Shown here in pieces: positions 22,962 to 62,414 of a DNA stretch of 64,000 nucleotides. The notes beneath the pieces were generated by a model. The model was not told where the DNA came from. It made no database searches and saw only the letters and a list, made by a program, of their open reading frames with translations. The DNA is from a virus: IMG/VR virus record IMGVR_UViG_3300026519_000239, positions 1 to 64,000 of that record. One strand, 5' to 3'. The translations under genes were made by a program, and so were the position numbers. Position 1 is the stretch's first letter. Each line of letters begins with the position of its first letter.

Positions 22962-22987
22962 GTGCCTATAACCTTTTGGAGATCGTA

Positions 22988-31900: not shown

Positions 31901-33937
31901 AAAGATATTGTATCTAACGATAAGTCAGATGAATATCGGAGTAGTGCAGTAGAAGACATTCGTTCTAATGGAGTATCTAAAAAAGATGTGCATATTATTG
32001 AGCAGAAAGTAATAGATTTGGTTCGTGCTACTAAGGGACTGCCAGTTACTGGAGAGATTGAACCAAATATAGCTGCCATTGCTTATAGTACGCTTGGTAA
32101 AGATATTCTGAAGGACACTCCTACTCTGAATAGCATTGTGAATCAAATAGGCGTCATGTACTTCGTAGAGTCCTATGGGTACTTGTCAGATAAAAAGAAA
32201 GGCATGATCAAAGACATGATGGAAGAAGAGAGTGTAGGCATTGAAGGGATGCTTGAAATCGTAGCTGCTAACAAGGAGAAAGAGATTGCAGGCAGATACG
32301 AGGGAGACCCTCTAAATATGATTGCTGGTGATATAGGGATCTTTGACCCAGAAGTAAGAATCATGGAAACCAGCAAGAAGAATAAGAATAATCATATTCT
32401 TCTGCGTGATCTTGGGAATGGATATGGAGTATTCAGAAATGGCTACGTAGCTTCTATGGATTATTCCAAGGGATTGTTTGGCTTGACTGATAAGAGTAGG
32501 AGACCAGGTACTTTCATATCTTTCGATGAAGCCAATAAGATGAAATCCACTGATGGCTTATTTAAGAGATATCGTAACGGTAAATTGATTGGGTATGAGC
32601 TGAGGCTTACTGAAAAGGATCAGAACAAACATATAGACAAGAATCGGCAAGCACATGAGCTGATAGGCAGCGAAGCTGGAAGGATCATGCGTGAGGATAG
32701 GACAGAGAAGTACAACCTCGAAGCTATAGACATGGTTTACGCTGATTGGGAAAGGAAGTATGCCAAGAATCCAAAGCAATGGATCAAGGTATCTACTAAT
32801 AGCAAGAATAGGCAGGTAGCTGAGTTTGCCCGTACGATGCCTAAGCATATGAAGGATAAAGCCAACGAGTTGTTTCCTAATGGTGAGATGTATGTGAGGA
32901 AGGAGCAGCTCAATTTATTGCTTGGATTCAGGAAACTTTCAGTGGCTCAAGAGATTGAGAGAGTTACCAAGAAGAAGTTACCAAGACCAGTAGTCAAGTC
33001 TATTGTTATCGGCCAAAAGCTATGGGAAACAGTTATATCTGACGTTAAATCCAAAACTATTCTGTTTACCCCAGCAGTCGTACTAGGCAACCAAATGAGT
33101 AACATGCTGTTGCTGAAATTGAAGGGAGTTGACTTTGAAGATGCCATTAGAGGGCAGGTAGAAGGATTGCGGCAGATCAAGATTCACTTAAAGTTGCAAA
33201 AGGAGATTGCAGCTCTTGAGGCTAAGCAGATAGCTGGGGATGTAAGCCCTACAATACAGAGACAGATTGATCGTAAAAGGACTAGGATGGAAAGCTTGGG
33301 TATTCATCCATTGATCAATGAAGGAATCTTTCAGCCTATCGTAGAAGACCTGTCATCCAGTGAGTTTGGGGATGCTCCTGTTGGCGTAGAGACTCTCAAG
33401 CTAGTAAGTCCTAGGTTGGCTGATAAATTGAATGTAGCTGGTGAGAAAGCACCTGCATGGGCACGTAAGGCAGGTGCTTTAATGATGCTATCCCCTAGTA
33501 CAAAACTAGGTAACAACATTAGGCTAGCAACATCCTACAGTGATGTACTGGCTCGGTATGTACTGTTTAATCATCTACGCAAGACTGAACCATCGAAAAG
33601 CCCCAGGGAGCATGTAGATGAAATTATGGATACATTCGTAGACTATGCTCCCAATACATCTAGAGGTATCCAGTTCCTGAATGATTCTGGCTTGTATATG
33701 TACACTAAGTTCTTACTAAGGACTCAGAGAATTATTGCAAGAACATTGGCTGATAGTCCTGATCGATTCATTGGGTTGCAGTTGGCTCAAGCAGTAGTTG
33801 GGGATTTGCCTGATATTGCGGATTCGCAAATGTTGACTGGGATTTCATTGGGAGGAGGAAGGACAGTTACTCCAGATGAAGCTATAGATACAGTAACCCA
33901 GTTACCGTTGTTCTATGCACTGAAACAAGTATTTTGA
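22988..33937 (+). CDS. Giant virion RNA polymerase (N4 gp50-like) with metallopeptidase motif, 3649 aa
   Basis: ATG at 22988 after TTTTGGAGATCGTA; the frame opens at 22976 without a better site. Position and size match N4 gp50 (3500 aa), the RNA polymerase injected with the DNA. Candidate single-subunit polymerase motifs, in order: a T/DxxGR-like STFGRALD (R1862), motif A IEVDGISNGIMSMLRQ (D2011), motif B RKIGKSYVLPKNY (R2156, K2160, Y2168, with exactly the R+4 K, R+12 Y spacing of T7 and N4), and motif C SYDLFDA (D2444). A HEFTH zinc-protease motif is at 2678-2682. The region 1330-1500 is Lys/Glu-rich and low-complexity. The C-terminal ~900 residues are helical, as in the large polyvalent virion proteins. 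It would transcribe the early genes right after entry. Confidence 0.75.
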   Translation: MSKLDDLLSALSTTADQRVNAAMDKYTNIFGGPSPDQPVQVPKQQEAEIASQRAQTTVEALNPQQPAPEEAPLTPEQRLAQISGVTDIDPKKEYIEVKTPDGKSKLVDATSSDGDNITRAIRNTYNNTTERGYALDTWEVPHGGKKQQEAFFNSNKGQKQREAAARILGISPEQVTAEHIFTLGQNAAKERARLIAEHGGLVGSVELGDVRNDPTTGNRVLSSTKLADGTDLRDLLNTPLLNADFYSKYNSRGRRDYELGSTKNPDGGAVLSDAEAANPSAVGSLVQIGTSAIDAFLRTGLGGVNAAANTGVQIAAALQGEGIQDLTPEDRQIFDRIRDTEKKGKTLLSKIEKDPVASKIDVIDQMTNQAIEATGGTPEQPVDKLDKYMQEALAPEEYAIWKGTAKRPDTPIQNNALDSLTKKPEGILDTLSQSAGLAAGLIFGFGTVKAAANPSAAIQQARQQVEGTGLVDKTDKTKFQRYSEVKQQQETAAKAIANPVDTVLGTEGRNDQQDRFRVNAKTGRAEYVPMHNAYGDKAAMEILDAGAERMVKAGEKGDYIGVVSEAASTLYDVVTKEKTATASAFADVIGLAAATMFNKKGAVEEGTGFVGKLAGFVKNLPKGANGPQALNTAFKAANIVGLQQDKLTEMETKFTELNKGEAPTPEEYEKIKDLSVVASAVDLLGIAMFTGPGGKAMSEMLSKATTKKAGQFASKVLAEMAGTGINGLDEVAVEAITQLGTRQRQGDFDKKAWAVSFLQGAQAKAPGAVLEVATKGIPSIPGDVLDGTVKAVKMYQRVNDVAKGHKFTIDEEGNVHFKGKVMPGMVPPDPETGKYPTEVPKDVEKAIKQMIYKGQGDAVVKHIANTRAVLEGEFTEEDLQKRIITPSVDIVTEASMAADQAFVDTAEVESPETGETVPAEPAVPQELDVTNPEEVIAVLKNQDIPVVQRAAITLAVQSRMQTIYGQTVAQMQEAMTKGELEGDKAEAAIALLDQYEAWIDVLSTQVDSLPKNERVEAGVIYQEKGDQLLADIIRGSAPEVTKQDTAKSPLVQSYKKVLDYINTRDEEDNKTADDVRKEVLQDGENASGKKGLMTHMKALAVAGISKNPEALAYARAEVNSFLASQTDKLNKLKEAVDAYEESGNPVPVYFKSNIAKKEPNFVVDNPGKVRNFIKVIEQEVQMIGEVAKMGDELHNKLKNNEPILEDALEKQLKETGKKVSDIANAPKQNQKKEDNVATQKEDKAPVNAEVQTTDKADTAPTKTQVDAKKVEDKPKEKPVAKKAKKKKEKPKVDVLGDEVKAEPTPEEIKKDTEDAKQQQEKTKEQWLEDPLVADIKAAFEEAQNQDPEDNADIADLKPVLDLTKTEKVAKETSKEATPMVKTIQSHTKNVSILMKQISSRRYMPPGLKKLMESGKQLTTDYFLKGRKNPTGLLALPSLTAIGNYLKDVGDTGLEAFRADLLGELGPAMKKELFKQFQNSANYVIGRKLSLDKLATSPIGLFLNEKNELAPQLRNAMLHTAVEWIADKSVASVLKTDKEVYASLGLDIKSDFITPSVLDALRDMGELRSKLAEQLGNRVLEGLGIDLNSDVPDAGFRQRLVGSIGLSMLSAMANIKDKKGEPIIHFNRVPSELMAELTETASVSMEASPVYVSLNIQRDEYQRPVMDQSGRVRVNNLLAYKIRKKTNQSKEIYKKYMELAFGKKPITRTTSYKPFKMRKPEDIKDRPTRNNSYGQLSEAELDHVNQLQQVAFKANPLIKMMDLKEGRMAIAKMFGYVEPTRDGDIPSLPLDKVKGQLAKNEAIIRDLDAVLDKLSEQDQTIEELTKARDEATDPKDRERLQRELNQARKKEIYFPFKISTFGRALDNAQDLSIQRSKIHRNIFTPAESTHTFPMSDTKSMEAIMKSFIEPLGLDRVRMESDPTGEFMDRFAIKNADGTYTASDPVIEKGIQAMQAFLRDDFYKPEDITAAVDELGEEGHSWLALMDVANIRTALESGNPDASITTYSYIEVDGISNGIMSMLRQVMSEFDAKEAINDPNSFSAEVLDFANAGGMYIEGGKYQSYGEYLADGGYDVYQKVIIKTADAMDRAVTAANKMTPKDVTNLRIRLENEQAKSANKRNQSLIAELKRELAIYAVKDIIPEFVVEGTNQVTKGARKIGKSYVLPKNYMSGDKAAKEGVARDMLDSMRAELAELASKVSPVAVINNDSNDADLRAFKTAAKRMNAFLRQVNPEIPAYTWDTAREPFSKEHEAQAIQVIVDGLGSILADGYFEAAGKFTETGGKSLNIIGQAQAIIVKHIAQQRINAAMEKKGGAVLSEGERQKIMQELADEGIYVGAKTPDSDADRSSFILDVVDRKPMEDAQGGYVQNDYSGDSRRPGYTVPVREFGFVDGELVDTGIKPVKSAKASIYVKQPSSKIGLRMAIGLNINQESATNRQLEGSSYDLFDAQLNDPMKDAEASKKINKVWETYQQDNSMMENAVNQLERLIEASKKFNSPELTGEINRFLEELNDHPDSPIVGDTLDKLLVDAKSMSNRINQARSQFNQAVSVSGQYDSIGNAYEVKESNVHGSSARRINLDTFKKGESVPVTMSSISMLWAQTKAGQKIGDTKEDAAYMDEIFGKHILPMVQRVRGLTVAVQNSRYERGGAAKGKNIFIKRNSAVRELATDMSDAEIMLHEFTHPLWEEGFRQDSLSLDQVSKLMDEAIASEEFTPEALMDKSHPDPEEAYNAAKQLYDYITSDVHEFATFGLTNARVRRVLNRIETKKTKGRPKTLLNLLRSIFEALLGRWKSYESKSPSTIGVELENIAGRFQQAAEASNKTLYKRLENKAFKEVNKKIVEPIVEWQKSVTDRAPDWKKALALPAGLLRSEYTTQLGKLGDRLVKEHHGILADAAREMLGPNKVTRPFHRMLSYVNEHVDSAAIRTTQATSQVITELFNKKLTNKQWKALTDGLLRTDAYVAERAIGLDGLKDIVSNDKSDEYRSSAVEDIRSNGVSKKDVHIIEQKVIDLVRATKGLPVTGEIEPNIAAIAYSTLGKDILKDTPTLNSIVNQIGVMYFVESYGYLSDKKKGMIKDMMEEESVGIEGMLEIVAANKEKEIAGRYEGDPLNMIAGDIGIFDPEVRIMETSKKNKNNHILLRDLGNGYGVFRNGYVASMDYSKGLFGLTDKSRRPGTFISFDEANKMKSTDGLFKRYRNGKLIGYELRLTEKDQNKHIDKNRQAHELIGSEAGRIMREDRTEKYNLEAIDMVYADWERKYAKNPKQWIKVSTNSKNRQVAEFARTMPKHMKDKANELFPNGEMYVRKEQLNLLLGFRKLSVAQEIERVTKKKLPRPVVKSIVIGQKLWETVISDVKSKTILFTPAVVLGNQMSNMLLLKLKGVDFEDAIRGQVEGLRQIKIHLKLQKEIAALEAKQIAGDVSPTIQRQIDRKRTRMESLGIHPLINEGIFQPIVEDLSSSEFGDAPVGVETLKLVSPRLADKLNVAGEKAPAWARKAGALMMLSPSTKLGNNIRLATSYSDVLARYVLFNHLRKTEPSKSPREHVDEIMDTFVDYAPNTSRGIQFLNDSGLYMYTKFLLRTQRIIARTLADSPDRFIGLQLAQAVVGDLPDIADSQMLTGISLGGGRTVTPDEAIDTVTQLPLFYALKQVF

Positions 33938-49661: not shown

Positions 49662-51764
49662 TTAAGTGATGAAACGGTGCATAGAGTTAATCATATGAGA
49701 TGGAACCGATGACTTGTGTGCGTTTAGGCTACGTTCTTGTGAGCAAGGAACAGTTACCAAGTCAGGTCTATTCCATCTGTCCATGAAGAAACTCATGGCC
49801 ATATCCCGGAATGTATTCAGATAGCCGGGAGGCATCATGAAAGCATCATGGATGTCTATGAGTGCAGGGATGGTTACACCTATCCGTCGAGCCAAAGCAC
49901 CATCCAGTGAATGGATAGTATTGGCTCCAGCAGCTAGATTCCTTCCATCTGGGTTGCCTACAGTAATCACCATAGACACCCCACTCTCCTCATCAATAAC
50001 TACCTCCTTTTTCTGTGTACATACATAGAACGCCTTATATGTGCCACTGGTATAATCTGAGTGAATGTCAGGCATGCGCACTACACAGTCTTGATCAGTG
50101 AACTCTGCAAGTTTGCATTGGTTCAGATGTGTGTTAACAGCAGGAATTACTTTCTGTATCCCCATTTGCAAAGCCACTGCTGAACTAGCATCCACTCTCT
50201 CATACGCAGAAGTACTTCCATACATGATAGGCATGAGGAGTGTATTCTTGAGGAACTTACGATCATCAGGAGCGTTCCACATACCGGTCTCTTTGGCTGC
50301 TTCTAGTACTTCCATGTACACATCTACTGGAGGTGTATACAGTTCGTCATACCAGTTATCTGTTAGTAGATTGCTAACAGAAGCTGTTTGTACACATCCG
50401 TAGATAGCACCAATCCACTGAGTAGCATTGGAAGTGAAGTCAACAGTGATAAGCCTTCTGCTTACTTCATAAAGATTTCCTTTTCTAAGCAAGTCAATGG
50501 TCTTCTCAGCATACTTCCATGCATAGTACTCATTGTCTTTCTCAGGTGTTTCTACTGTTTTGCGGTTGCACACAATATCTAAGCCATATTGAAGCCTGTC
50601 CATGAAAGAAGCTTTCTCTTCCACGAACTTACCTAAGTACCACAACACACTAGGCACTACCTCAGCTCTTTCTGATTCCAGTCCTTGAAACATACAAATT
50701 GCAACATCCTCAGCATCTAGCGTAGGCAGTTGCTTGATAAGCAGTTCATCTGCTGTTCTTGTTATATTTATCTCCTTAATTATCTCAGGAGTTACAAGAC
50801 AGTTTCTTAGATGATGGTATTGCTTAATTGCATTGTAGTTTCTACCGCGGGAATCCAGCTCAGGAATAAACCAAACATCGAAGCCAAGTTCATGATAGGT
50901 GTACATCAAATCACGGCATAGATTGTAGTGATAAATCACTGACTCTCGCGTGGCTTCCTTGATGTAGTTACCATTTTTGTCTTCTGCTGTGGGTTCCCAG
51001 TGCTCAGACAGAATATCTACATCTATATCAAAAGTCTGCTCAGCCAATGAAAACAATATTTGCTTCTTTGGCTTTTCCATATACTTTGGTACAGATTTTG
51101 TATATCCAGTATATCTTCCGTCTTCTTTCAGCTTCGCAAATACAGCGTTGATAATGTTACGACTAGCAATTGCTGAGAGGCTTTTCGGAACACACATAGG
51201 AAGCAAGCCAGTATTGCATTGCTTATCTACGTTAATTGCCTTTGGACAGTGAAGATCATGGATATCTATAATACTGCCCTTTACTGTGAAGAGTTTGGTT
51301 TCTTCTCCTATGCGTTTCAGCATTTGGTACAAAGTATTGCCAGTTTTCTCTACCTCTTCTTCGTACTTCTCACCTGCGTTGAGGGCAGAGATACCATGAT
51401 GACTTAATACCGTATGCAGCAATCCATGGATAAGCGTCTGTACAGCCATAGTCTTTGTAGGCTGCATGCTGAGCTTAACTAAGATGGCTGTATACAGTTT
51501 GCCAACGATGTCTAATGAATGGTTTGGAAATGCTTGCACCAGAATTTCTCTGACTTTTGTGAAAGCTAATTTATAGCCTTCATTGTTGTCATAGAGATCA
51601 GTCAAATATTCTTTAGCAAATTGCTTTCCTATATCGTTGCTATACCATTCAAGTATAAATTCATTTACCTTTATGGCTTTATCTGTGTTTGATAAGTCAT
51701 CTTTATTTATATATCGGATGTAGGCTCCCATAACGGGAGCCAGTATCTGTGGTTTACGTTTCAT
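49662..51764 (-). CDS. Single-chain T7-type RNA polymerase (N4 RNAP II counterpart), 700 aa
   Basis: Motifs of single-subunit RNA polymerases: DxxGR at ELDSRGRNYN (D304-R308), motif A ITVDFTSNATQWIG (D442), motif B DDRKFLKNTLLMPIMYG (R502, K506, Y515; one residue longer between K and Y than T7), and motif C LIDIHDAF (H639-D640). At 700 residues it is smaller than T7 RNAP (883) and close to the sum of the two N4 RNAP II subunits gp15+gp16. So the two-gene N4 enzyme appears here as one fused chain. It would transcribe middle genes. Its position, upstream of the AAA/VWA pair, is that of N4 gp15/gp16. Confidence 0.88.
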   Translation of the reverse strand: MKRKPQILAPVMGAYIRYINKDDLSNTDKAIKVNEFILEWYSNDIGKQFAKEYLTDLYDNNEGYKLAFTKVREILVQAFPNHSLDIVGKLYTAILVKLSMQPTKTMAVQTLIHGLLHTVLSHHGISALNAGEKYEEEVEKTGNTLYQMLKRIGEETKLFTVKGSIIDIHDLHCPKAINVDKQCNTGLLPMCVPKSLSAIASRNIINAVFAKLKEDGRYTGYTKSVPKYMEKPKKQILFSLAEQTFDIDVDILSEHWEPTAEDKNGNYIKEATRESVIYHYNLCRDLMYTYHELGFDVWFIPELDSRGRNYNAIKQYHHLRNCLVTPEIIKEINITRTADELLIKQLPTLDAEDVAICMFQGLESERAEVVPSVLWYLGKFVEEKASFMDRLQYGLDIVCNRKTVETPEKDNEYYAWKYAEKTIDLLRKGNLYEVSRRLITVDFTSNATQWIGAIYGCVQTASVSNLLTDNWYDELYTPPVDVYMEVLEAAKETGMWNAPDDRKFLKNTLLMPIMYGSTSAYERVDASSAVALQMGIQKVIPAVNTHLNQCKLAEFTDQDCVVRMPDIHSDYTSGTYKAFYVCTQKKEVVIDEESGVSMVITVGNPDGRNLAAGANTIHSLDGALARRIGVTIPALIDIHDAFMMPPGYLNTFRDMAMSFFMDRWNRPDLVTVPCSQERSLNAHKSSVPSHMINSMHRFIT

Positions 51765-53641: not shown

Positions 53642-53674
53642 GGCAGTACTGAATACTACCCAAACCAAACACCC
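53642..53674 (-). promoter_or_regulatory. Phage promoter candidate: conserved 12-mer plus hairpin (copy 1)
   Basis: On the minus strand GGGTGTTTGGTT (53674-53663) is followed after two bases by GGTAGTA-TTCAG-TACTGCC (53660-53642), a 7-bp stem with one G-T pair. It lies about 40 bases upstream of the ATG at 53601. The same 12-mer occurs exactly at 55.7, 57.3 and 58.6 kb, always before a leftward operon. Confidence 0.7.
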
Positions 53675-53731
53675 CCCAAAACTCAGAAACACTCTATAAG
53701 TGGGTTTTGGTTTGCAGTTTACGGAGGGCAT

Positions 53732-53771
53732 AAAAAAAGCCCCAACAATCATTTTCAGACTATTGGGGCTT
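53732..53771 (-). terminator. Leftward terminator
   Basis: On the minus strand AAGCCCCAA (53771-53763) pairs with TTGGGGCTT (53745-53737), followed by a run of seven T. It lies just upstream of the promoter element at 53674 and insulates that operon from upstream transcription. Confidence 0.8.
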
Positions 53772-53814
53772 CACTCTCTCAACACACACATTGGGAGTTC
53801 TTGAAATTAAAAGA

Positions 53815-53898
53815 GACACTATCCATCAATGGGTAACTGGGTAGTGTCAATTCGGTTTTGGGAGAAACCAAGAAGGATTCTATCAAGTAGGTTTCTCC
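53815..53898. other. Two inverted repeats in the 53602-54004 intergenic stretch
   Basis: GACACTA (53815-53821) pairs with TAGTGTC (53842-53848). GGAGAAACC (53861-53869) pairs with GGTTTCTCC (53890-53898). Both stems have 20-base loops and no T-run. They lie between the terminator at 53732 and the rightward promoter at 53937, in a 400-base stretch with no gene. Role unknown; regulatory or mRNA processing hairpins are possible. Confidence 0.5.
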
Positions 53899-53936
53899 TG
53901 TCAACCAGAAATCTTAGTTTACATACTTCTATTCAC

Positions 53937-53964
53937 TTGATAAGTAAGCAGGAGTATGTAGACT
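53937..53964 (+). promoter_or_regulatory. Sigma70-type promoter candidate for the gene at 54005
   Basis: TTGATA (53937-53942), 16-base spacer, TAGACT (53959-53964), about 40 bases before the ATG at 54005. Matches the host consensus at 5 of 6 and 4 of 6 positions. Good position, moderate sequence. Confidence 0.4.
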
Positions 53965-54004
53965 AGGGTACTTCACTAAACCAACCCAATGGAGGGTTAG
54001 CACT

Positions 54005-54262
54005 ATGGTAGATACACCTATGAAACGAGCACGTAGAGAGGTAGGGCAAGAGTTTGCAGATCGACTTGATCCTGATACCAAGTACACTATCAATCGCCTT
54101 GCTGAGCTGGTAGAAGAGCTTTCAGGATACTACAACAAAGCCAAAGCCAAAGAGTTTCGTAAGCTCTTGGTTCAGCTCCGTAAGAGCGTTACTGCTACTC
54201 GTAGCTTTACTATGGAGTTGGATGCTAAGCTGCCTAAGCGCAGCGATTTCAACCCACAGTAG
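54005..54262 (+). CDS. Small basic protein, 85 aa, isolated rightward gene
   Basis: The only rightward gene between 34 and 64 kb. ATG after GGAGGGTTAGCACT. Helical and basic at both ends (MKRARREVG; KAKAKEFRKLLVQLRKSVTATR), so it might bind nucleic acid or a host protein. It has its own promoter-like sequence and is closed by a large bidirectional terminator, a self-contained unit. Family not recognised. Confidence 0.6.
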   Translation: MVDTPMKRARREVGQEFADRLDPDTKYTINRLAELVEELSGYYNKAKAKEFRKLLVQLRKSVTATRSFTMELDAKLPKRSDFNPQ

Positions 54263-54281
54263 CTCCTTTATCTCAGGCTGT

Positions 54282-54339
54282 AAAAAAAGTAGCCCCTAGA
54301 GCCTTGTATAACTTCTACAAGATACTCTAGGGGCTTTTC
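54282..54339. terminator. Bidirectional terminator
   Basis: AGCCCCTAGAG (54291-54301) pairs with CTCTAGGGGCT (54325-54335); an inner stem CTTGTA/TACAAG (54303-54308, 54316-54321) extends it. T-rich bases follow on the + strand and a 7-T run follows on the minus strand. It separates the rightward gene 54005-54262 from the leftward gene ending at 54349. Confidence 0.9.
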
Positions 54340-54348
54340 TTTGGCTTC

Positions 54349-54846
54349 TTACTTAGTAGCTACGTATACCACCTCATCATCTACTTGACCGAGTTCAGCA
54401 GCATGACGTTCAGCCTGCTGAATGATCTCTTTGTCCTCACGCATCTCCTGCATGAGCTTCATAGCCTTCTCCTTGACCTTCTCAGCCGATTCTCCGTAGG
54501 ATGCATCCACTTGATCCATCAAGTCTCGAAGTTGCTTTGTGGCTTCAATCTGACGCTTCGTGGCTTCTGTGTGTACTCGCAACTCCATGATCTCTAGATC
54601 AGTAGCTGCACAGAACTTGTCAGCCTTTGCCATGGATTCAGCCAAGCGAACTTCAAGAGTTCTCTCGAACTCAATATTCATTCGTTTTTTCTTCAGCTCA
54701 GCCTCTTTCTTCCACTTATCCAAGTGGGCATCCAAGTGAGCAGTAAGACCGTTATGCACCTGGGTAGCGGGCTTGATTACATCCATGGTTCCTTTGGATA
54801 CGGCGTCATAGGCTGTCTTGATTCCGTTGTAAATAGTGTTAAGCAT
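54349..54846 (-). CDS. Coiled-coil protein, 165 aa
   Basis: Helical, charged protein with heptad-like repeats from about 40 to 150 (KKEAELKKKRMNIEFERTLEVRLAES; EATKRQIEATKQLRDLM). It starts with an amphipathic helix (MLNTIYNGIKTAYDAVSKGTM). It resembles in overall design the 132-residue protein at 58139, which also begins with a short helix followed by a long coiled coil. Both may be membrane-peripheral scaffolds. No family recognised. Confidence 0.6.
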   Translation of the reverse strand: MLNTIYNGIKTAYDAVSKGTMDVIKPATQVHNGLTAHLDAHLDKWKKEAELKKKRMNIEFERTLEVRLAESMAKADKFCAATDLEIMELRVHTEATKRQIEATKQLRDLMDQVDASYGESAEKVKEKAMKLMQEMREDKEIIQQAERHAAELGQVDDEVVYVATK

Positions 54847-54871
54847 TGGTTTCGTTCCTCTTTGTCTTGAG

Positions 54872-54913
54872 ATTAAAAATAAGCCCTAATCCAGACGAAT
54901 CCAGAAAAGGGCT
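54872..54913 (-). terminator. Leftward terminator between small genes
   Basis: On the minus strand AGCCCT (54913-54908) pairs with AGGGCT (54887-54882), followed by TTATTTTTAATC. It lies between the genes at 54964 and 54846. No promoter is visible before 54846, so it is probably a partial terminator. Confidence 0.6.
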
Positions 54914-54963
54914 AACTGTAGGAGGGTGAGCAGTTTTAACCCATACTCAGGGGTAATCCAAAA

Positions 54964-55641
54964 TTATACGTCTACATCAGTTGAAGACGTACCGAAGTCT
55001 TTGAATACATCTTCAGCATCATTGGTATTGCTACTATACGCCTCCATAGCAGCCTGGAGACGCTTTGTAGGTTGAATATTAGCTACTACTCGATTTCCAT
55101 TCTGGTTCAGATACCGAACCAGAGCTTGGGCTACTGGCTTAGCCAGCGATGATCCAGCAAGGTTGATGGTACGAGAAGCATCTGATGGGTGGATCAGGTA
55201 GTAGTTGATCCAGCATTCGTGTGTTTTTGCTTTCATGTCCCGTTTCTTCTTGCGCTCCATTTGCTGGGCCATGAAGATATCTTTGAATGCACTATCGGTA
55301 TCCTGTGACCGTTCAGAAGCCACGAATTCAGGAGCAGTTGAATAAACAACTTCTCCTTCGATGTTGATGTCAAATACGACGTTCGGGATGATAGGAAAAG
55401 TATTGCTGCTAAGCACCTCATCTACGATTTGCTGAGTCAACGCTTTCGTCAAAGCATTACTGTCTTGGCGCACTTTCGCAAATGTGTAAGGTACGTTGTC
55501 TCCCACATTTACATCAGTAAGCCAACAAGTGGCGATACCGCCTTGAGTCTCTTCGATGACTTCAGCAGGAGTTGGTACTGTATCTGAACCAGTGTTAGTC
55601 AGTTCTACGATTTTCTTCAGATCTTCAGCATTGAAATACAT
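54964..55641 (-). CDS. Hypothetical protein, 225 aa
   Basis: I chose the second ATG (55641): GAGGAAATGAAC places the site 8 bases before it. The N-terminal region is beta/alpha, the middle carries a basic stretch (MERKKKRDMKAKT), and the end is acidic Ser/Asp-rich. No family recognised. It is the first gene after promoter element copy 2, about 40 bases away, so it is probably strongly expressed early. Confidence 0.6.
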   Translation of the reverse strand: MYFNAEDLKKIVELTNTGSDTVPTPAEVIEETQGGIATCWLTDVNVGDNVPYTFAKVRQDSNALTKALTQQIVDEVLSSNTFPIIPNVVFDINIEGEVVYSTAPEFVASERSQDTDSAFKDIFMAQQMERKKKRDMKAKTHECWINYYLIHPSDASRTINLAGSSLAKPVAQALVRYLNQNGNRVVANIQPTKRLQAAMEAYSSNTNDAEDVFKDFGTSSTDVDV

Positions 55642-55679
55642 GTTCATTTCCTCTTTGATTAAGTTAATAAGTAAGTTCA

Positions 55680-55715
55680 GGATTAGCTTTCTCTAATCCC
55701 ACAAACCAAACACCC
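55680..55715 (-). promoter_or_regulatory. Phage promoter candidate: conserved 12-mer plus hairpin (copy 2)
   Basis: On the minus strand GGGTGTTTGGTT (55715-55704), four bases, then GGATTAG-AGAAAG-CTAATCC (55699-55680... 7 bp perfect stem). It lies about 40 bases before the ATG at 55641. Upstream on the same strand a second, degenerate copy of the TCAGAGTGTGG... block is repeated. Confidence 0.7.
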
Positions 55716-55862
55716 CAAACCACACTCTGAAAACACCTTCTACACCCCACACCAAACCACCACACTCTGACGACTACTACTACGATGACAAACCAAACCA
55801 ACAACAACAACAACCAACCACTAAACCAAACGAATGAAGGCTGGATAGTAGTTGGTTAGTTG
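55716..55862. repeat. C/A-rich low-complexity stretch (G/T-rich on the transcribed sense)
   Basis: The + strand is almost free of G here (ACCAAACC, CAACAACAACAACAACC, ACTACTACTACG, CCACCACACTCTG). CACTCTGA occurs twice. It lies directly upstream of promoter element copy 2 and downstream of the broken lipoprotein gene. It may be a single-strand-prone region for polymerase loading; nothing coding is visible. Confidence 0.5.
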
Positions 55863-55867
55863 GATTA

Positions 55868-56284
55868 CTAGTACTTGATGTTGTAATCCATAGACGACTG
55901 TGCGTATACGTTACCTTCCAGTAACTCAAGAATTAGATTACCCTGCTCCATGCACACATCAGTTGGAGCAATAGTAGTCTCCCCTTCTATTACGCAGTCT
56001 CTTAGGAATGTATCTAGTCCTTCCAAGACCATTTGTCGATATGTATACACATCAGTGTAGATGGTAACTTTCTCTTCTCCAGTCCTAGGAACTTGGATGT
56101 TATATTGTGTAATTGGGATGATTGTTTTGCTCGGAGCTTCAGCTACTCTGGTTCCTGAGTCAGATTAGATATCTGTTTGCGGCTTCGCCTGATCCAAAGA
56201 TATTGGAGTATCTGCTTCTGTCTGACAGGCAGTTAGCATAACTAGGATGATTGTTGACATTATTGCTTGGATTGGTGTTTTCAT
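55868..56284 (-). pseudogene. Lipoprotein gene interrupted by one in-frame TAA
   Basis: From the ATG at 56284 (GAGAGAAACCT upstream) the frame encodes a lipoprotein signal peptide with lipobox LTAC (Cys20) and 19 more residues. It then meets TAA at 56165-56167. The same frame continues without a shift for another 98 codons to a TAA at 55868, beginning SDSGTRVAEAPSKTIIP and ending YAQSSMDYNIKY. Without the stop it would be a normal 138-residue lipoprotein. A nonsense mutation, read-through or sequencing error are the options. The downstream half alone has only a GTG (56050) as a possible start. Confidence 0.65.
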
Positions 56285-56314
56285 AGGTTTCTCTCTCTCT
56301 ATTATCTATTGGTT

Positions 56315-56350
56315 TAAAAAATTAGGAGAACCAGCATAAGCTAGCTCTCC
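56315..56350 (-). terminator. Leftward terminator
   Basis: On the minus strand GGAGA pairs with TCTCC (56350-56346 and 56329-56325) with an inner AGC/GCT pair, followed by TAATTTTTT. It ends the small operon with the zinc-ribbon gene before the lipoprotein gene. Confidence 0.6.
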
Positions 56351-56359
56351 GTAGGTTGG

Positions 56360-56536
56360 TTATATTGGCTGACCGCACCCAACGCATTCTGGGCCGTCGC
56401 CATCTCTATGGATAGTTCCACAGAATGGACACACCAGCTCTTTTACTGGTGCTATTCTGTCCAGTGTTTTGTTTACCTCTTCTGAGTCAGTATATGTAGC
56501 TGACTCATGGTCAGTTGCTGTGTCTTTGTCCATCAT
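56360..56536 (-). CDS. Zinc-ribbon small protein, 58 aa
   Basis: ATG at 56536 with AAGAGAGGTAACTAAAT upstream. The C-terminal part has VCPFCGTIHRDGDGPECVGCGQ, that is CxxC...CxxC, a zinc-ribbon. The N-terminal 35 residues are acidic and Thr/Ser-rich. Small zinc-ribbon proteins of phages often bind host RNA polymerase or act as adaptors, but nothing specific can be said here. Confidence 0.65.
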   Translation of the reverse strand: MMDKDTATDHESATYTDSEEVNKTLDRIAPVKELVCPFCGTIHRDGDGPECVGCGQPI

Positions 56537-56551
56537 ATTTAGTTACCTCTC

Positions 56552-56770
56552 TTACATTATAAGTTGGAGTAGGAGCACTGTTTTAACCCCTGCTATAAAA
56601 GCCATCAGCAGCAACAATGCTGTCATTACTGCTTCTAGAGCCATTGTGATCCAATCGCCTTGCTTGAAGTCCCAGTACACTAACTTTTCGAATAAGACTG
56701 CAATCCATACAAATGCTGTTGCAGTAGTAGCTGCAATTATCACTAGTGTGCCTACAATCAATTGTTCCAT
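56552..56770 (-). CDS. Small two-helix membrane protein, 72 aa
   Basis: ATG at 56770 after AGAGGAAAAGGAA. Two strong membrane segments, about 5-28 (IVGTLVIIAATTATAFVWIAVLF) and 44-65 (LEAVMTALLLLMAFIAGVKTVLL), with a short polar connection (EKLVYWDFKQGDW). Small early membrane proteins of this type can be holins, pinholins or superinfection-exclusion proteins; position in the early region makes holin less likely. Confidence 0.6.
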   Translation of the reverse strand: MEQLIVGTLVIIAATTATAFVWIAVLFEKLVYWDFKQGDWITMALEAVMTALLLLMAFIAGVKTVLLLQLIM

Positions 56771-56795
56771 TTCCTTTTCCTCTATTAGTTAGATT

Positions 56796-56833
56796 AAAAA
56801 TAAGGGACTGACATAAGCCAGTCCCTTATTTTT
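56796..56833. terminator. Bidirectional terminator
   Basis: AAAAATAAGGGACTG (56796-56810) pairs with CAGTCCCTTATTTTT (56819-56833), a 15-bp stem that includes its own T-runs on both strands. It ends the gene at 56841 and precedes the small membrane protein. Confidence 0.9.
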
Positions 56834-56840
56834 ATGGAGA

Positions 56841-57287
56841 TTAGAGTCCGTATACGAACCCTATGTGTTTAAACACCGAGGATTTCCGTACTGATCCATC
56901 CTCCTGTACCTCTTCTACGCTTTCTCTTCTTGAGAAAGCATAGACCGGCTGGATTCCATTCCTTAGTAGCTCCTCTTGTAAAGGAGCCATCAGAAATGGA
57001 GCTCCTCCTATCATTACTTGGATCGGTTGTTCTGAGTTTTGATCAAGCAACTTGGCGATGTTAGCTAGTTGCCTTGCACGATGGAGTGGCTCAAGATCGT
57101 ACGGCAGCTCTTCAAAAGTAAGGATGTCTTCCAATGTGCTGGGCATCCTTGTAAGAAAATCCTCTGTGTCTCCTCCTGTCTCCTCTAGATACTCCACGTA
57201 CATCTGGAGTGCTTCATTGTAGTCTACAACTCCTTCTGCACGCTGTTCTTCTGTTGCTTTGTGTTGAGTGAAATTGATGATCATCAT
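56841..57287 (-). CDS. Hypothetical protein, 148 aa
   Basis: ATG at 57287 after AGAGGTAAACCT. Begins MMIINFTQHKATEEQ and has a conserved-looking block IQVMIGGAPFLMAPLQEELLRNGIQPVYAFSRRESVEE near residues 90-125. This pattern looks like a Rossmann-like alpha/beta protein, found as an uncharacterised gene in many genomes; I do not know its function. It is driven by promoter element copy 3, which lies 31 bases upstream. Confidence 0.6.
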   Translation of the reverse strand: MMIINFTQHKATEEQRAEGVVDYNEALQMYVEYLEETGGDTEDFLTRMPSTLEDILTFEELPYDLEPLHRARQLANIAKLLDQNSEQPIQVMIGGAPFLMAPLQEELLRNGIQPVYAFSRRESVEEVQEDGSVRKSSVFKHIGFVYGL

Positions 57288-57317
57288 AGGTTTACCTCTT
57301 TGTTTTGGTTTAAGTTA

Positions 57318-57346
57318 GGTCTATGGAAGACCCCAACCAAACACCC
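57318..57346 (-). promoter_or_regulatory. Phage promoter candidate: conserved 12-mer plus hairpin (copy 3)
   Basis: On the minus strand GGGTGTTTGGTT (57346-57335), two bases, then GGTCT-TCCAT-AGACC (57332-57318), a 5-bp stem. A 15-base palindrome CTAAGTTaAACTTAG (57346-57360) lies just upstream of the 12-mer. The leader after the hairpin contains TTAAACCAAAACA as in copy 1. Confidence 0.7.
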
Positions 57347-57626
57347 TAAGTTAAACTTAGATACAAGTAGCTATAGCAGGGATATAAGTGTAGTTATAAA
57401 TAAGCGGAATAACCTTGTAAAGAGTGTGTGTAGGAGTATTGATAGAAATGGTAATGAAATCAATGATATAGGTGAGAATATAGGGAATAGGTACATAGTG
57501 AGGGTAAGTTATTGAAAAATAAGGAGAATTTCTTATGTATGATGGGAAGGAAGTGTAATGAAATCAATGGGATATGGAGTATTCTTAAAGAGATAGTTGA
57601 ATGGGAAATTGTGGAAAAATCGTTAA

Positions 57627-57666
57627 AAATCAATGACTTACAGAACAAATCAATGACTTACAGAAC
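57627..57666. repeat. Tandem perfect 20-bp repeat, two copies
   Basis: AAATCAATGACTTACAGAAC occurs at 57627-57646 and again immediately at 57647-57666. It is followed two bases later by a strong hairpin. Confidence 0.85.
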
Positions 57667-57668
57667 AC

Positions 57669-57707
57669 GCTATGTCGATATAAGCATACGTATCGACATA
57701 GCATTTT
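57669..57707 (+). terminator. Strong 12-bp hairpin with T-run
   Basis: GCTATGTCGATA (57669-57680) pairs perfectly with TATCGACATAGC (57691-57702) and is followed by ATTTTT on the + strand. It has the form of a rightward intrinsic terminator although no rightward gene precedes it. It may end a small RNA or form part of an origin. Confidence 0.7.
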
Positions 57708-57720
57708 TGCACCTAAAAAT

Positions 57721-57764
57721 AGCCTACATGACAGTGCATTACAGCCTACATGATAGTGCATGTA
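57721..57764. repeat. Tandem near-perfect 22-bp repeat, two copies
   Basis: The first 11 bases AGCCTACATGA and the block AGTGCAT are identical in 57721-57742 and 57743-57764, with a single substitution between them. A second iteron-like pair about 80 bases from the first one. Confidence 0.75.
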
Positions 57765-57813
57765 ATGAATTTAATTCTCTTTGTAAATCAGTAACTTAGC
57801 TACTTATGGATTG

Positions 57814-57822
57814 TGTGGATAA
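57814..57822 (-). promoter_or_regulatory. DnaA-box sequence
   Basis: TGTGGATAA on the + strand is TTATCCACA on the minus strand, the consensus DnaA box. It lies 50 bases beside the tandem repeats. One 9-mer match can arise by chance; context makes it worth noting. Confidence 0.4.
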
Positions 57823-57971
57823 CTGAGCCAAAGAGTGTGATTTCAATTTGTTTAAAACTTACATGAGTAAAAATATACGTATGATGGTAAATAAATTATA
57901 TTTTTAATTATAACTAAACCAAAGATAAGGGTTGAGATTGGGGTAAATATAATTTATTTATTAGGATTATT

Positions 57972-57984
57972 AATCCAATGGATT
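57972..57984. other. 5-bp stem, 3-base-loop hairpin
   Basis: AATCC-AAT-GGATT. The same CC-AAT-GG core forms hairpins at 59077-59093 (7 bp) and near 59117. Short stems with 3-base loops are the recognition element of N4 virion polymerase promoters, so these are candidate sites. Confidence 0.3.
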
Positions 57985-58093
57985 GGTGAGTTGGAGGAGT
58001 TGATTTAATTGTTGGTTAATTTAGTGAGAATTTCTCGTGGCTCTATTTAGCTGTGTGAGTGTGAGTGTGATGAGTGTGTGAGAGTGTGTGGTT

Positions 58094-58138
58094 AAAAAAT
58101 AAGCCCCACTACCGTTAGGTAGCAGGGCAATGAGGCTT
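58094..58138 (-). terminator. Terminator of the coiled-coil gene
   Basis: On the minus strand AAGCC...GGCTT with an inner CTACC/GGTAG stem and GTTA-type loop, followed by ATTTTTT. It starts right at the stop of the gene 58139-58537. Confidence 0.75.
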
Positions 58139-58537
58139 TTAGAAGAACTTAATGTCTTCGGTCGCCTCAGAGATCCAGTCATCTGGGTTAAACTTAGGTT
58201 TATCCTTCTTCTCTGGAGTCGGCTTCTCTTCAGGGATCTGTCCAGATGCTTTCAGCTCTTGTATCTTGAGCTGTAACTCCTTGGTATTTAGCTGAAGCTT
58301 TTCGATCTCATATTCCTTCTCGAGTTTATACACGGCAGTACGTGCTGCTGCTAGCTTAAGCTTAGACTTAAGCTTTTGTTCCAGTTGGAGTTTCTGCTTT
58401 GAAGCCCTGTACTGGGCCTTCATCTTTTCTCCCTCAAGGGCGGAACTCGTATACAGGCTTAGAATCTCATGGGCCTCAATTGCAGGCTTTACTGCTCTTT
58501 TGATTACAGTCATGGTCTTGTTTACTGCGTCTTTCAT
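58139..58537 (-). CDS. Coiled-coil protein, 132 aa
   Basis: ATG at 58537 after GTAGGAGGGATTAGTA, an excellent site. A short N-terminal helical part, then a long Lys/Gln/Glu-rich coiled coil from about 35 to 95 (KLQLEQKLKSKLKLAAARTAVYKLEKEYEIEKLQ) and a Pro/Lys-rich tail ending SEATEDIKFF. Similar in design to the gene at 54349. Driven by promoter element copy 4. Function unknown. Confidence 0.65.
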   Translation of the reverse strand: MKDAVNKTMTVIKRAVKPAIEAHEILSLYTSSALEGEKMKAQYRASKQKLQLEQKLKSKLKLAAARTAVYKLEKEYEIEKLQLNTKELQLKIQELKASGQIPEEKPTPEKKDKPKFNPDDWISEATEDIKFF

Positions 58538-58580
58538 TACTAATCCCTCCTACAGGCTAGTATGTTAAGTGACGGACTAC

Positions 58581-58612
58581 GGTAGCCCCATGCTACCTAG
58601 AACCAAACACCC
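58581..58612 (-). promoter_or_regulatory. Phage promoter candidate: conserved 12-mer plus hairpin (copy 4)
   Basis: On the minus strand GGGTGTTTGGTT (58612-58601), three bases, then GGTAGC-ATGGG-GCTACC (58597-58581), a 6-bp stem. It lies 44 bases before the ATG at 58537. A CCCCGGGG palindrome directly upstream. Confidence 0.7.
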
Positions 58613-58655
58613 CGGGGGGCAGGTCGGATCCAGTCCACGTACAGACACCCCCTAA

Positions 58656-59006
58656 GCCACTGTCTGCTGCTAATATATTTTTGATGTCAGAAGTTTTTTC
58701 ATACCACTGTCTATTAGTAGTATATTTTTGATGTCAAAAGTTTTTCTCCCTCACACCTAAGCTACCACTCTCTGCTAATGGTAGATTTTTTACCTCAAAA
58801 CTTTTTCTTAGATATTTCTAAGCCACTCTCTGCTGATGATATATTTTTTGTCCCAGAACTTTTTTTCATACTACCATCTGTTGCTAATAGATTTTTTATG
58901 CTGAAACTTTTTCCCTATACTGCTCTCTATTAGTAGTATGTTTTTTATCTCAAAAGTCTTCCTATACTGATCTCTATAATTAACAGATTGCTTATCTTAA
59001 TAATCC
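58656..59006. repeat. Degenerate tandem array, about seven units of ~46 bp
   Basis: Units begin near 58656, 58701, 58762, 58822, 58868, 58914 and 58962. Each has a block like CCACTCTCTGCTAAT, a short GTAG/GTAT arm, a T-run (ATTTTTT), a TCAAAA-type block and a second T-run (CTTTTTC). Several units have an incomplete stem (for example CTACCA/TGGTAG at the third) directly before the T-run, so they look like weak terminators in series. No gene is visible here. Confidence 0.75.
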
Positions 59007-59076
59007 TCTCAATCCAGTACTATTCCTCTTAAGTTGGTTTCTATCCTTAATCTTCTTAGTTGTTGTATCTCTTAAT

Positions 59077-60440: not shown

Positions 60441-60605
60441 ATTGCTGCTATTGATTCATTGACCCAATAAACCAAACCAAAGATAGCTCATTCTCACAGT
60501 ATCTACTACAAGCTCACTAAGGCTTCCCACCAACCACACCCCCAAAACACCACACACCAAACCAGCCCAACCAAACCACACCAAACAAACCAACCCAACC
60601 TACTA
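60441..60605. repeat. C/A-rich stretch with degenerate promoter-like element
   Basis: The + strand is nearly G-free (ACCAAACCAGCCCAACC, CACACCAAACAAACC), with several ACCAAAC blocks. On the minus strand GGGTGTGGTTGGTGG followed by an AAGC/GCTT hairpin (60510-60525) resembles the exact 12-mer plus hairpin elements at 53.6-58.6 kb. It would drive the operon beginning at 60429. Confidence 0.45.
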
Positions 60606-60817: not shown

Positions 60818-60958
60818 TACTGTATATATCTATATATTAGTTATATAGATTGGGTATATACAGTATCTAACTAATAATTCTACCAGACTCTCTTTGAGTC
60901 ACTATTCAAGTTGTTATCTTGAATAGGTCAGTTATATAACCTAGTAATTATCTACTAG
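60818..60958. other. Cluster of consecutive hairpins
   Basis: TACTGTATATA (60818-60828) pairs with TATATACAGTA (60855-60865), with an inner ATCTATAT/ATATAGAT stem. Next GACTC-TCTTT-GAGTC (60886-60900). Next CTATTCAAG-7-CTTGAATAG (60902-60926). Then the palindrome GTTATATAAC (60931-60940) and CTAGTA-6-TACTAG (60941-60958). About 140 bases of almost continuous inverted repeats, with no coding. Confidence 0.75.
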
Positions 60959-61127
60959 ACTCCTAACTGCCAGGTTGTCAGGGGTTGGACATTGCCTGGA
61001 TTAAAGTTATAAGGCTTCTTTGGGTTTAATAGCTCTGCGACCTTATAGCGCTTGCGATGGTATGTTGGATTGTTGTTGGGGTAGCTAATCCTACTCACCA
61101 ACCCGCCCCCTGCGGATACACGCGTTA

Positions 61128-61350
61128 TACAGAAAGTTATAGATAGATACAAGAGCTTTCTGTAAGAGAGATATAGAACCAACCCTAATTCAGCTATTCC
61201 TTTACTTTTTTGGTTCAGCGAACGAAGTGAGCGTTGCAAGCCGTTAAGGGGGGAAAGGAAGGGCTTACGTAGCGTAGCGTAGTAAGCCCTGACGTCCGGA
61301 GCGTAGCGGAGGCCCCCCAAGGCGCGCAGTGAGCGTAGCGAACGAAGTCT
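61128..61350. repeat. Palindromes and GC-rich TACG/GAACGAAG repeats
   Basis: TACAGAAAG (61128-61136) pairs with CTTTCTGTA (61156-61164). GGGCTTAC (61261-61268) pairs with GTAAGCCC (61282-61289) around repeated GTAGC. GCGAACGAAGTGAGCG-like and GCGTAGCG blocks occur several times, ending with GTAGCGAACGAAG. The open frame 60955-61320 on the minus strand crosses these palindromes and has no binding site, so I treat it as chance. From 61351 to about 61700 I see nothing definite. Confidence 0.6.
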
Positions 61351-61758
61351 CTACCTTAGAAAGCCAATCTAGATATACCCAATCTTCTAGCCCTTTTTTA
61401 TGGGCACAAAGCAATACTGTATTCCGCCATACAGACCACTTCCGCTACCGATACCTCCCCTGAGAATTGATGCTCCATTCACTACGTTCATTCCGCATAA
61501 ATTTCAGGGGGGCATCTCCGCTCACGTGGTCTTACTGGCTCCATACAAAGAATCCCTGTCGGGAGGTGAGAATATGCCTCTAATTCTTCACTGAATGCGC
61601 TGTGAGTGGATTTCAGCTATTGAGATGATGATAGGTAGGGGTAGACGGGTTAGAACGCAATACAGAGAGGATTTTGGATTTGCAGATGTTGCTGGGCTGA
61701 GATGAGTGGGGATGGGTGTGAGCTAGAAGGTAAGATTGATGGTGAGTTGAGTTATTAG

Positions 61759-62295
61759 CGGGCAGGAGAGATCAAAGACCCCAAGGGGGAGAACCTGGGG
61801 AAAAAGACTGGTTACTGCGTAGCTTGTTCTTATCTGCCCGGTGAGATCAGTATTTGTGCGGTATTGGCCTTGCCGGGATTTCGTACTGACTACAACAGTA
61901 ACCATTGTCAGTACAGCGCACGGGTCGAGGGAATCCATCACGTCAATCAGGCACCGGCTTCAACGGTAGTCTCGTTACAGACTGCTGCGTTATTGTCCTG
62001 ACTGCACTGGCTTTGCAGACTCACTACGATGGGCAATCAACTTTATCGAGTAACTGTACCGTCTACAGGTATCAGCATATTGGCTTATGTATGAGCATGC
62101 TAGTAGCTTTTAGCTCCACTCTCCGCCGGGGTCGTACTCAAGGTATGGCATTGGTAACGTGCCGCCCTTGCTTGAACAGTTTACCGCTGAAACCACGGAT
62201 TCTCTGAACAGTATCTAGCTATGAACGTCTCATGCTGATACTCAACGTCTGCCCCGCCCGGTTGTGATATTGGGCCTCTTAAACGCTAACAAGCG
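61759..62295 (-). ncRNA. Candidate large structured non-coding RNA
   Basis: About 540 bases, richer in G and C than the flanks, with no supported gene. Helices: CGGGCAG/CTGCCCG (61759-61765, 61834-61840); GTACTGAC/GTCAGTAC (61883-61890, 61907-61914), enclosed by GTGCG/CGCAC (61856-61860, 61917-61921); AGTCT/AGACT near 61975; CTGCA/TGCAG near 62000; and a 10-bp long-range GTATCAGCAT/ATGCTGATAC (62069-62078, 62232-62241). Nine bases of the 61891-61906 loop (CAGTAACCA) are complementary to TGGTTACTG (61809-61817), a kissing or pseudoknot pairing. A good promoter points into it from the right. The 3' end is not defined. Confidence 0.5.
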
Positions 62296-62301
62296 ATTGT
62301 G

Positions 62302-62330
62302 ATTCTACGTTGTGGGTTTTGACTTGTCCA
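62302..62330 (-). promoter_or_regulatory. Sigma70-type promoter for the candidate RNA
   Basis: On the minus strand TGGACA (62330-62325), 17-base spacer, TAGAAT (62307-62302): 5 of 6 matches in both hexamers with optimal spacing. It starts just after the terminator of the upstream operon and points into the gene-free 61.7-62.3 kb region. Expected start near 62295. Confidence 0.6.
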
Positions 62331-62347
62331 GTACAAAGTAGTGGCGT

Positions 62348-62414
62348 AAAAAAGCCCTGAATACCTCCTACAGCATTCAGGGCCGGGGTTGCCAGTAGAG
62401 GAACGGTTACTGGC
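62348..62414 (-). terminator. Leftward terminator with additional hairpin
   Basis: On the minus strand GCCCTGAAT pairs with ATTCAGGGC (62383-62375 and 62362-62354), followed by six T. A second stem, GCCAGTA/TACTGGC (62391-62397, 62408-62414), lies at the very end of the gene. It ends the operon 63875-62415. Confidence 0.9.

Follow-up and report, generated by a model that had tools for sequence, protein, structure and literature searches.

The virus record IMGVR_UViG_3300026519_000239 comprises 74,335 bases, of which the first 64,000 were analysed here (hereafter the window). Between 58.6 and 53.6 kb, four leftward genes or operons are each preceded by the same element, an exact copy of the 12-mer GGGTGTTTGGTT followed by a hairpin (Table 1), and these elements are discussed below as putative early promoters. 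Apart from a one-base difference in a homopolymer, the two ends of the record overlap by about 137 bases. The genome encodes an N4-type DNA polymerase, primase, and ATPase, and its terminase is 47–51% identical to the terminases of five Schitoviridae. The best match of its DNA polymerase among phages has 36% identity, and a nucleotide-level search with the genome gave zero matches. Judged from these comparisons, this is a divergent N4-like phage (Schitoviridae), and the collections searched contain no close relative of it. A PHROGs search of 10 early proteins left nine without a family, as did a Pfam search of 10 proteins, which returned one weak sub-threshold match.

Table 1. Polymerase genes and elements of the early region. 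Fold z values were computed over 50 nucleotides (nt) from each 12-mer; aa, amino acids; vRNAP, virion RNA polymerase.
Feature	Coordinates	Strand	Evidence
vRNAP, 3653 aa, proposed reader of the 12-mer	22976–33937	+	PDB hits to N4 vRNAP; catalytic residues
RNAPII, single 700-aa chain, downstream of site 4	49662–51764	−	phrog_2051; alignment with gp15 + gp16 of five phages
Site 1 12-mer, proposed linear promoter core	58601–58612	−	exact repeat
Site 1 hairpin GGTAGC-ATGGG-GCTACC, proposed 5′ mRNA hairpin	58581–58597	−	z −2.82
Site 2 12-mer, proposed promoter core	57335–57346	−	exact repeat
Site 2 hairpin GGTCT-TCCAT-AGACC	57318–57332	−	z −1.29
Site 3 12-mer, proposed promoter core	55704–55715	−	exact repeat
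Site 3 hairpin GGATTAG-AGAAAG-CTAATCC	55680–55699	−	z −3.04
Site 4 12-mer, proposed promoter core	53663–53674	−	exact repeat
Site 4 hairpin GGTAGTA-TTCAG-TACTGCC, one G-T pair	53642–53660	−	z −4.49
G/T-biased tracts at and upstream of site 3	55706–55838	−	87–90% G+T in 60-nt windows

A preliminary description of this DNA had reported the four mismatch-free copies of the 12-mer, and a motif search bore out each of their positions. Zero further exact copies are present in the rest of the record, in which this word (with its complement) is the sole 12-mer that has at least four spaced copies per strand. When up to two mismatches are allowed, 17 matches are found against 4.0 expected, a number reached in none of 100 shuffles. 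All 12 bases are G or T, six of them being G, and the template strand is pure A/C; owing to this G/T-only composition, neither DNA strand of the 12-mer can fold on itself. Two degenerate copies had also been proposed, and neither held up. The leftward one, near 60510–60545, corresponds to a match with two mismatches at 60532–60543 that lies inside an almost pure G/T tract and does not fold significantly (z +1.03), and the rightward one, at 779–813, has more than two mismatches to the 12-mer (fold z +0.17).

At all four sites, a hairpin with GG at its opening and CC at its end starts 2–4 bases past the 12-mer, with a stem of 5–7 bp and a loop of 5–6 bases, just as the preliminary description had it. 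A GG-opening stem of this geometry, which was set for the background counts after the sites had been seen, follows 322 of 148,276 genome positions (0.22%) and 18 of 971 G/T-rich 12-mer positions (1.9%, the four sites included), compared with four of the four sites. Stem positions 1 and 2 are always G-C. Across the copies, position 3 reads T-A, T-A, A-T, and T-G, position 4 A-T, C-G, T-A, and A-T, and position 5 G-C, T-A, T-A, and G-C. Because positions 3–5 vary on both sides of the stem yet stay paired, the earlier suggestion that the hairpin is under selection is supported. A search of Rfam returned no family.

The start codons lie approximately 47–63 nt past the end of the 12-mer and approximately 30–43 nt past the end of the hairpin (counted by hand), so that the previously noted spacing of 30–45 bases applies to the hairpin and not to the 12-mer. 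All four elements are situated upstream of the RNAPII gene (49.7–51.8 kb), in the early region before the early units, and the whole-record search found no copy among the structural genes or in the replication (middle) region. The element is separated from the preceding gene by an intrinsic terminator at three sites, namely site 2 (58128–58103), site 3 (56350–56325), and site 4 (53772–53736). The ribosome site of the early leaders is left free of the hairpin. The four top minus-strand G/T windows of the record fall at sites 3, 4, and 60.5 kb, with the stretch 60541–60600 on the minus strand, before early genes, reaching 98% G+T on the non-template strand; the top tracts do not include sites 1 and 2.

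Such strand-biased tracts at sites 3, 4, and 60.5 kb, and a repeat array that adjoins site 1, could be expected if the elements were DNA sites that serve replication, packaging, or a structural protein and are located between operons by chance. We regard this as very improbable, since all copies are oriented in the direction of the genes at the distance from the start codon typical of an untranslated region, and sites 1 and 2 are not within the top G/T tracts. The array itself (58651–59007) consists of seven copies of a non-coding repeat of about 47 nt (spacing 47–61) just upstream of site 1, and is possibly an origin or a binding array.

In N4, the early genes are transcribed by vRNAP, which is delivered into the cell together with the DNA (PMC4496689). 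The window vRNAP contains no cysteine, and all eight catalytic residues tested of the N4 mini-vRNAP (R424, K437, R440, E557, D559, K670, Y678, and D951) are identical in it; by alignment, its RNAP domain spans about residues 1370–2500. Promoters of the N4 type carry a hairpin loop with 5′-G-purine-A-3′ on the template strand and a C:G closing pair (PMC4496689). Their hairpin has a stem of 5–7 bp and a loop of 3 nt, and the start site T/GG (the slash marks the start) follows the loop centre at a set distance of 11 nt, or 13–14 nt in some. We scanned for canonical promoters with a TNC loop of 3 nt on a stem of at least 4 bp, a C:G or G:C closing pair, and T/GG at 9–15 nt from the loop centre. 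Exactly three sites, with starts at 107, 576, and 4565, were returned in the first 9 kb of N4 and were taken to be P1–P3. There were seven sites in Pylas, six in Pollock, two in LUZ7, and four in VCO139, and the distance from loop centre to T/GG in the last two is 13 or 14. In VCO139 (L100: 768, 1259, 3061) and LUZ7 (L098: 3701), T/GG is found 13 nt rather than 11 nt from the loop centre, and start spacing thus seems to differ between Schitoviridae lineages.

The same scan detected no canonical hairpin on the minus strand of the window between 52000 and 62000. A looser scan gave one hairpin with a 6-bp stem and a 3-nt loop (CTAAGT-TTA-ACTTAG) at 57353 on the minus strand, directly before the 12-mer of site 2 only; it is perhaps due to chance or a relic of a hairpin promoter. 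The loops of the four hairpins in Table 1 (ATGGG, TCCAT, AGAAAG, and TTCAG) are 5–6 nt long instead of 3, the combination of a TNC loop and a C:G closing pair occurs in none of them, and T/GG is present in the roughly 33–36 nt after the loop centre at none of the four sites. As promoter hairpins of the N4 type they were rejected on account of loop, closing pair, and missing T/GG. A variant with a larger loop, which would be extruded from supercoiled DNA and bound on the template strand by vRNAP, with the start downstream, would agree with the genome region, the polymerase family, and the preserved pairing of the stems. It is nevertheless improbable: the loops differ in sequence and contain no TNC, T/GG is missing after all four, the conserved word is upstream of the hairpin rather than in the loop and start site, and on the template strand the G-T pair of site 4 would become a mismatch of A with C. 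The elements therefore share with N4 P1–P3 and their Schitoviridae counterparts the region, the orientation, and the number (a few, before the early units), together with the catalytic residues of the virion polymerase. They differ in having an exact G/T-only 12-mer, in lacking a 3-nt-loop DNA hairpin before the start (0 in 10 kb), and in having their hairpin downstream of the conserved word.

A closer parallel may be found in the early transcripts of the relatives. The predicted transcript of N4 P1 starts with GGACA-TGT-TGTCC and that of P2 with GGATG...CATCC, so that a GG...CC hairpin in the early leader is a further likeness to these two promoters; P3 has no flush transcript hairpin. Among 36 canonical-looking sites from 17 loci, 21 have a Watson-Crick stem that is flush with +1 and at least 3 bp long, compared with 4.06 expected and a maximum of 11 in 1000 shuffles that preserve base composition, not dinucleotides. 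Stems of at least 4 bp occur at 11 of the 36 sites (1.1 expected) and of at least 5 bp at eight (0.28 expected). These sites are not independent, as related promoters are counted separately, and sorting them by the first five bases of the transcript gives 20 groups, of which 11 include a stem-bearing member. All 36 sites were retained, although at least two of them, on the plus strand of L022 and in L110, are possibly not early promoters. In a comparison set of 78 T/GG hairpins with another loop or closing pair, 15 have flush stems of at least 3 bp (10.2 expected), four of at least 4 bp (2.9), and two of at least 5 bp (0.7). Since the scan for canonical sites required T/GG, it is uninformative on the generality of the T/GG rule. 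By this comparison, the GG...CC hairpins of the window look like the transcript hairpin of the relatives and not like their promoter hairpin.

The second polymerase of the phage is unusual. RNAPII is encoded by two genes in the five N4-like phages compared and is heterodimeric in nearly all phages with a vRNAP (PMC4496689), and the single chain of the window holds both the DxRGR motif (gp15 in N4) and motifs A, B, and C (gp16 in N4). One chain of this length could carry its own specificity, and the 12-mer might be its promoter, with the hairpin belonging to RNAPII transcripts. The N4 RNAPII promoter is likewise a short core of similar length (−7 to +2) without a hairpin, but it is AT-rich (PMC4496689) and belongs to the middle region, whereas the word described here is G/T-only and has no copy in the middle (replication) region, where RNAPII would be expected to act. 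Moreover, the RNAPII gene would then be left without a visible early promoter, unless it is made by the host polymerase. We consider this reading unlikely.

The conserved sequence could also act in RNA, as an element of the early 5′ untranslated regions that binds a phage or host factor or protects the message, with the promoter elsewhere, for example a host sigma-70 promoter. Predicted folds do reach into the 12-mer, whose GGUU pairs with bases past the hairpin; at three of the four sites they are stable, and there are sigma-70-like matches nearby. Such matches are no commoner than in shuffles, however (19 vs 23.6 between 52000 and 62500), no −35/−10 pair is common to the four sites, and upstream of the start codons no other shared sequence was seen there. 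The position of the ribosome site outside the hairpin also argues against a purely RNA-level leader, which we hold to be rather doubtful.

Weighing these alternatives, we lean towards early promoters, each composed of a linear 12-mer core and a 5′ mRNA hairpin and probably read by vRNAP. The preliminary description had offered either a site for one of the phage polymerases or a promoter plus a 5′-protecting mRNA hairpin. The second wording is the better fit; the first is plausible for the 12-mer, with a hairpin that is unlike the promoter hairpin of an N4-type vRNAP. We infer promoter function from position, repetition, and exclusion; the start site, the polymerase, and protection of the mRNA are likewise inferences. 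Because the elements are confined to the early region, vRNAP is the likeliest reader of the 12-mer, which would be recognised as a linear, unfoldable core, perhaps with DNA melting made easier by the G/T bias at sites 3, 4, and 60.5 kb. Transcription may start at the GG inside GTTT/GG of the 12-mer, which would give a T/GG context at a fixed distance, or at the opening GG of the hairpin, which would make the hairpin flush at a distance varying by 2 nt. A start at, or a few bases after, the 3′ part of the 12-mer would mean that the hairpin is transcribed; each early mRNA would then carry it at the 5′ end, with the ribosome site free behind it, and would probably be protected by it. Promoters of T7 are about 23 bp long with a fixed start, and the T7 gene 10 leader opens with a 5′ mRNA hairpin. 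The proposed arrangement is similar in that a linear promoter word precedes a transcript whose first bases are GG and which folds immediately, but here 12 bp are common and the distance to the hairpin is variable.

Several observations weigh against early promoters of this kind. Were the start at the hairpin, the 2-nt variation in its distance from the 12-mer would be unusual for a single-subunit polymerase. A clear copy of the element is missing at the first early unit, near 60.5 kb, and the terminator scan lists no terminator before site 1. By alignment, the loop-contact residues K114, R119, and W129 of N4 vRNAP are replaced by A, K, and F in the window; R119 is kept in the other five of five vRNAPs compared and K114 and W129 are not. 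These changes lend the proposal weak support, because K114 and W129 vary elsewhere and the region aligns poorly, and Pylas and LUZ7 differ at two of the three residues yet have hairpin promoters. A minimum-energy-fold version of the 5′-hairpin test was not significant (22 of 36 sites vs 19.9 expected; window, four of four vs 2.1 expected). Close relatives in which the 12-mer might recur were found neither by nucleotide search nor by RNAPII or primase peptide patterns, nor by terminase alignment, where the best identity was 53% among the best 80 of 556 loci. In 19 distant relatives there are 0 exact copies; nine of the 19 records have one match with a single mismatch, and a reversed-pattern control scores in seven.

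The distribution of the layout as a whole was assessed in 72 sources (71 of 116 loci, those of at least 9 kb, and the record of the window) by scanning for GG-hairpins 30–75 nt before starts with a ribosome site and with an upstream 7-mer common to at least three places. A family of this layout was present in the record of the window only, and the element family appears to be lineage-specific among the sequences scanned. Repeated 10-mers followed by hairpins form families in relatives L025, L054, L058, L060, and L067, of which the L025 family is a ribosome-site repeat. The openly accessible literature searched, outside which the subscription papers on N4 lie, yielded no description of a hairpin-free vRNAP promoter or of a flush 5′ transcript hairpin in the text available (PMC4496689, PMC3715699, PMC12633501, PMC6027278, PMC13001222).

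Two further features were observed near the elements. On the minus strand at 53904–53736, a sigma-70-like TTGACA-N16-TAGAAT with TG before the second hexamer (11/12) is followed about 105–170 nt on by an intrinsic terminator, and 138 nt of this region, terminator included, fold at z −5.92; it is a candidate small RNA gene. The stretch 60955–62400, between late-side genes and the first early genes, comprises about 1.4 kb without a convincing gene and is possibly the physical end of the genome.

The vRNAP of N4 is the textbook case of a polymerase that is unlocked by a DNA hairpin. More tentatively than the promoter assignment itself, we suggest as a possibility that in this lineage the N4-type vRNAP has abandoned promoters with a DNA hairpin and recognises, on melted DNA, a linear 12-mer of G and T only, and that its early transcripts retain a second family feature, the 5′-terminal GG...CC hairpin. 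In relatives, many early transcripts, among them those of N4 P1 and P2, would start with a flush GG...CC hairpin, which points to a common design of vRNAP transcripts. If the loss of the hairpin promoter is borne out, an intact vRNAP without a promoter hairpin would allow the role of the hairpin in recognition and unlocking to be told apart from catalysis.

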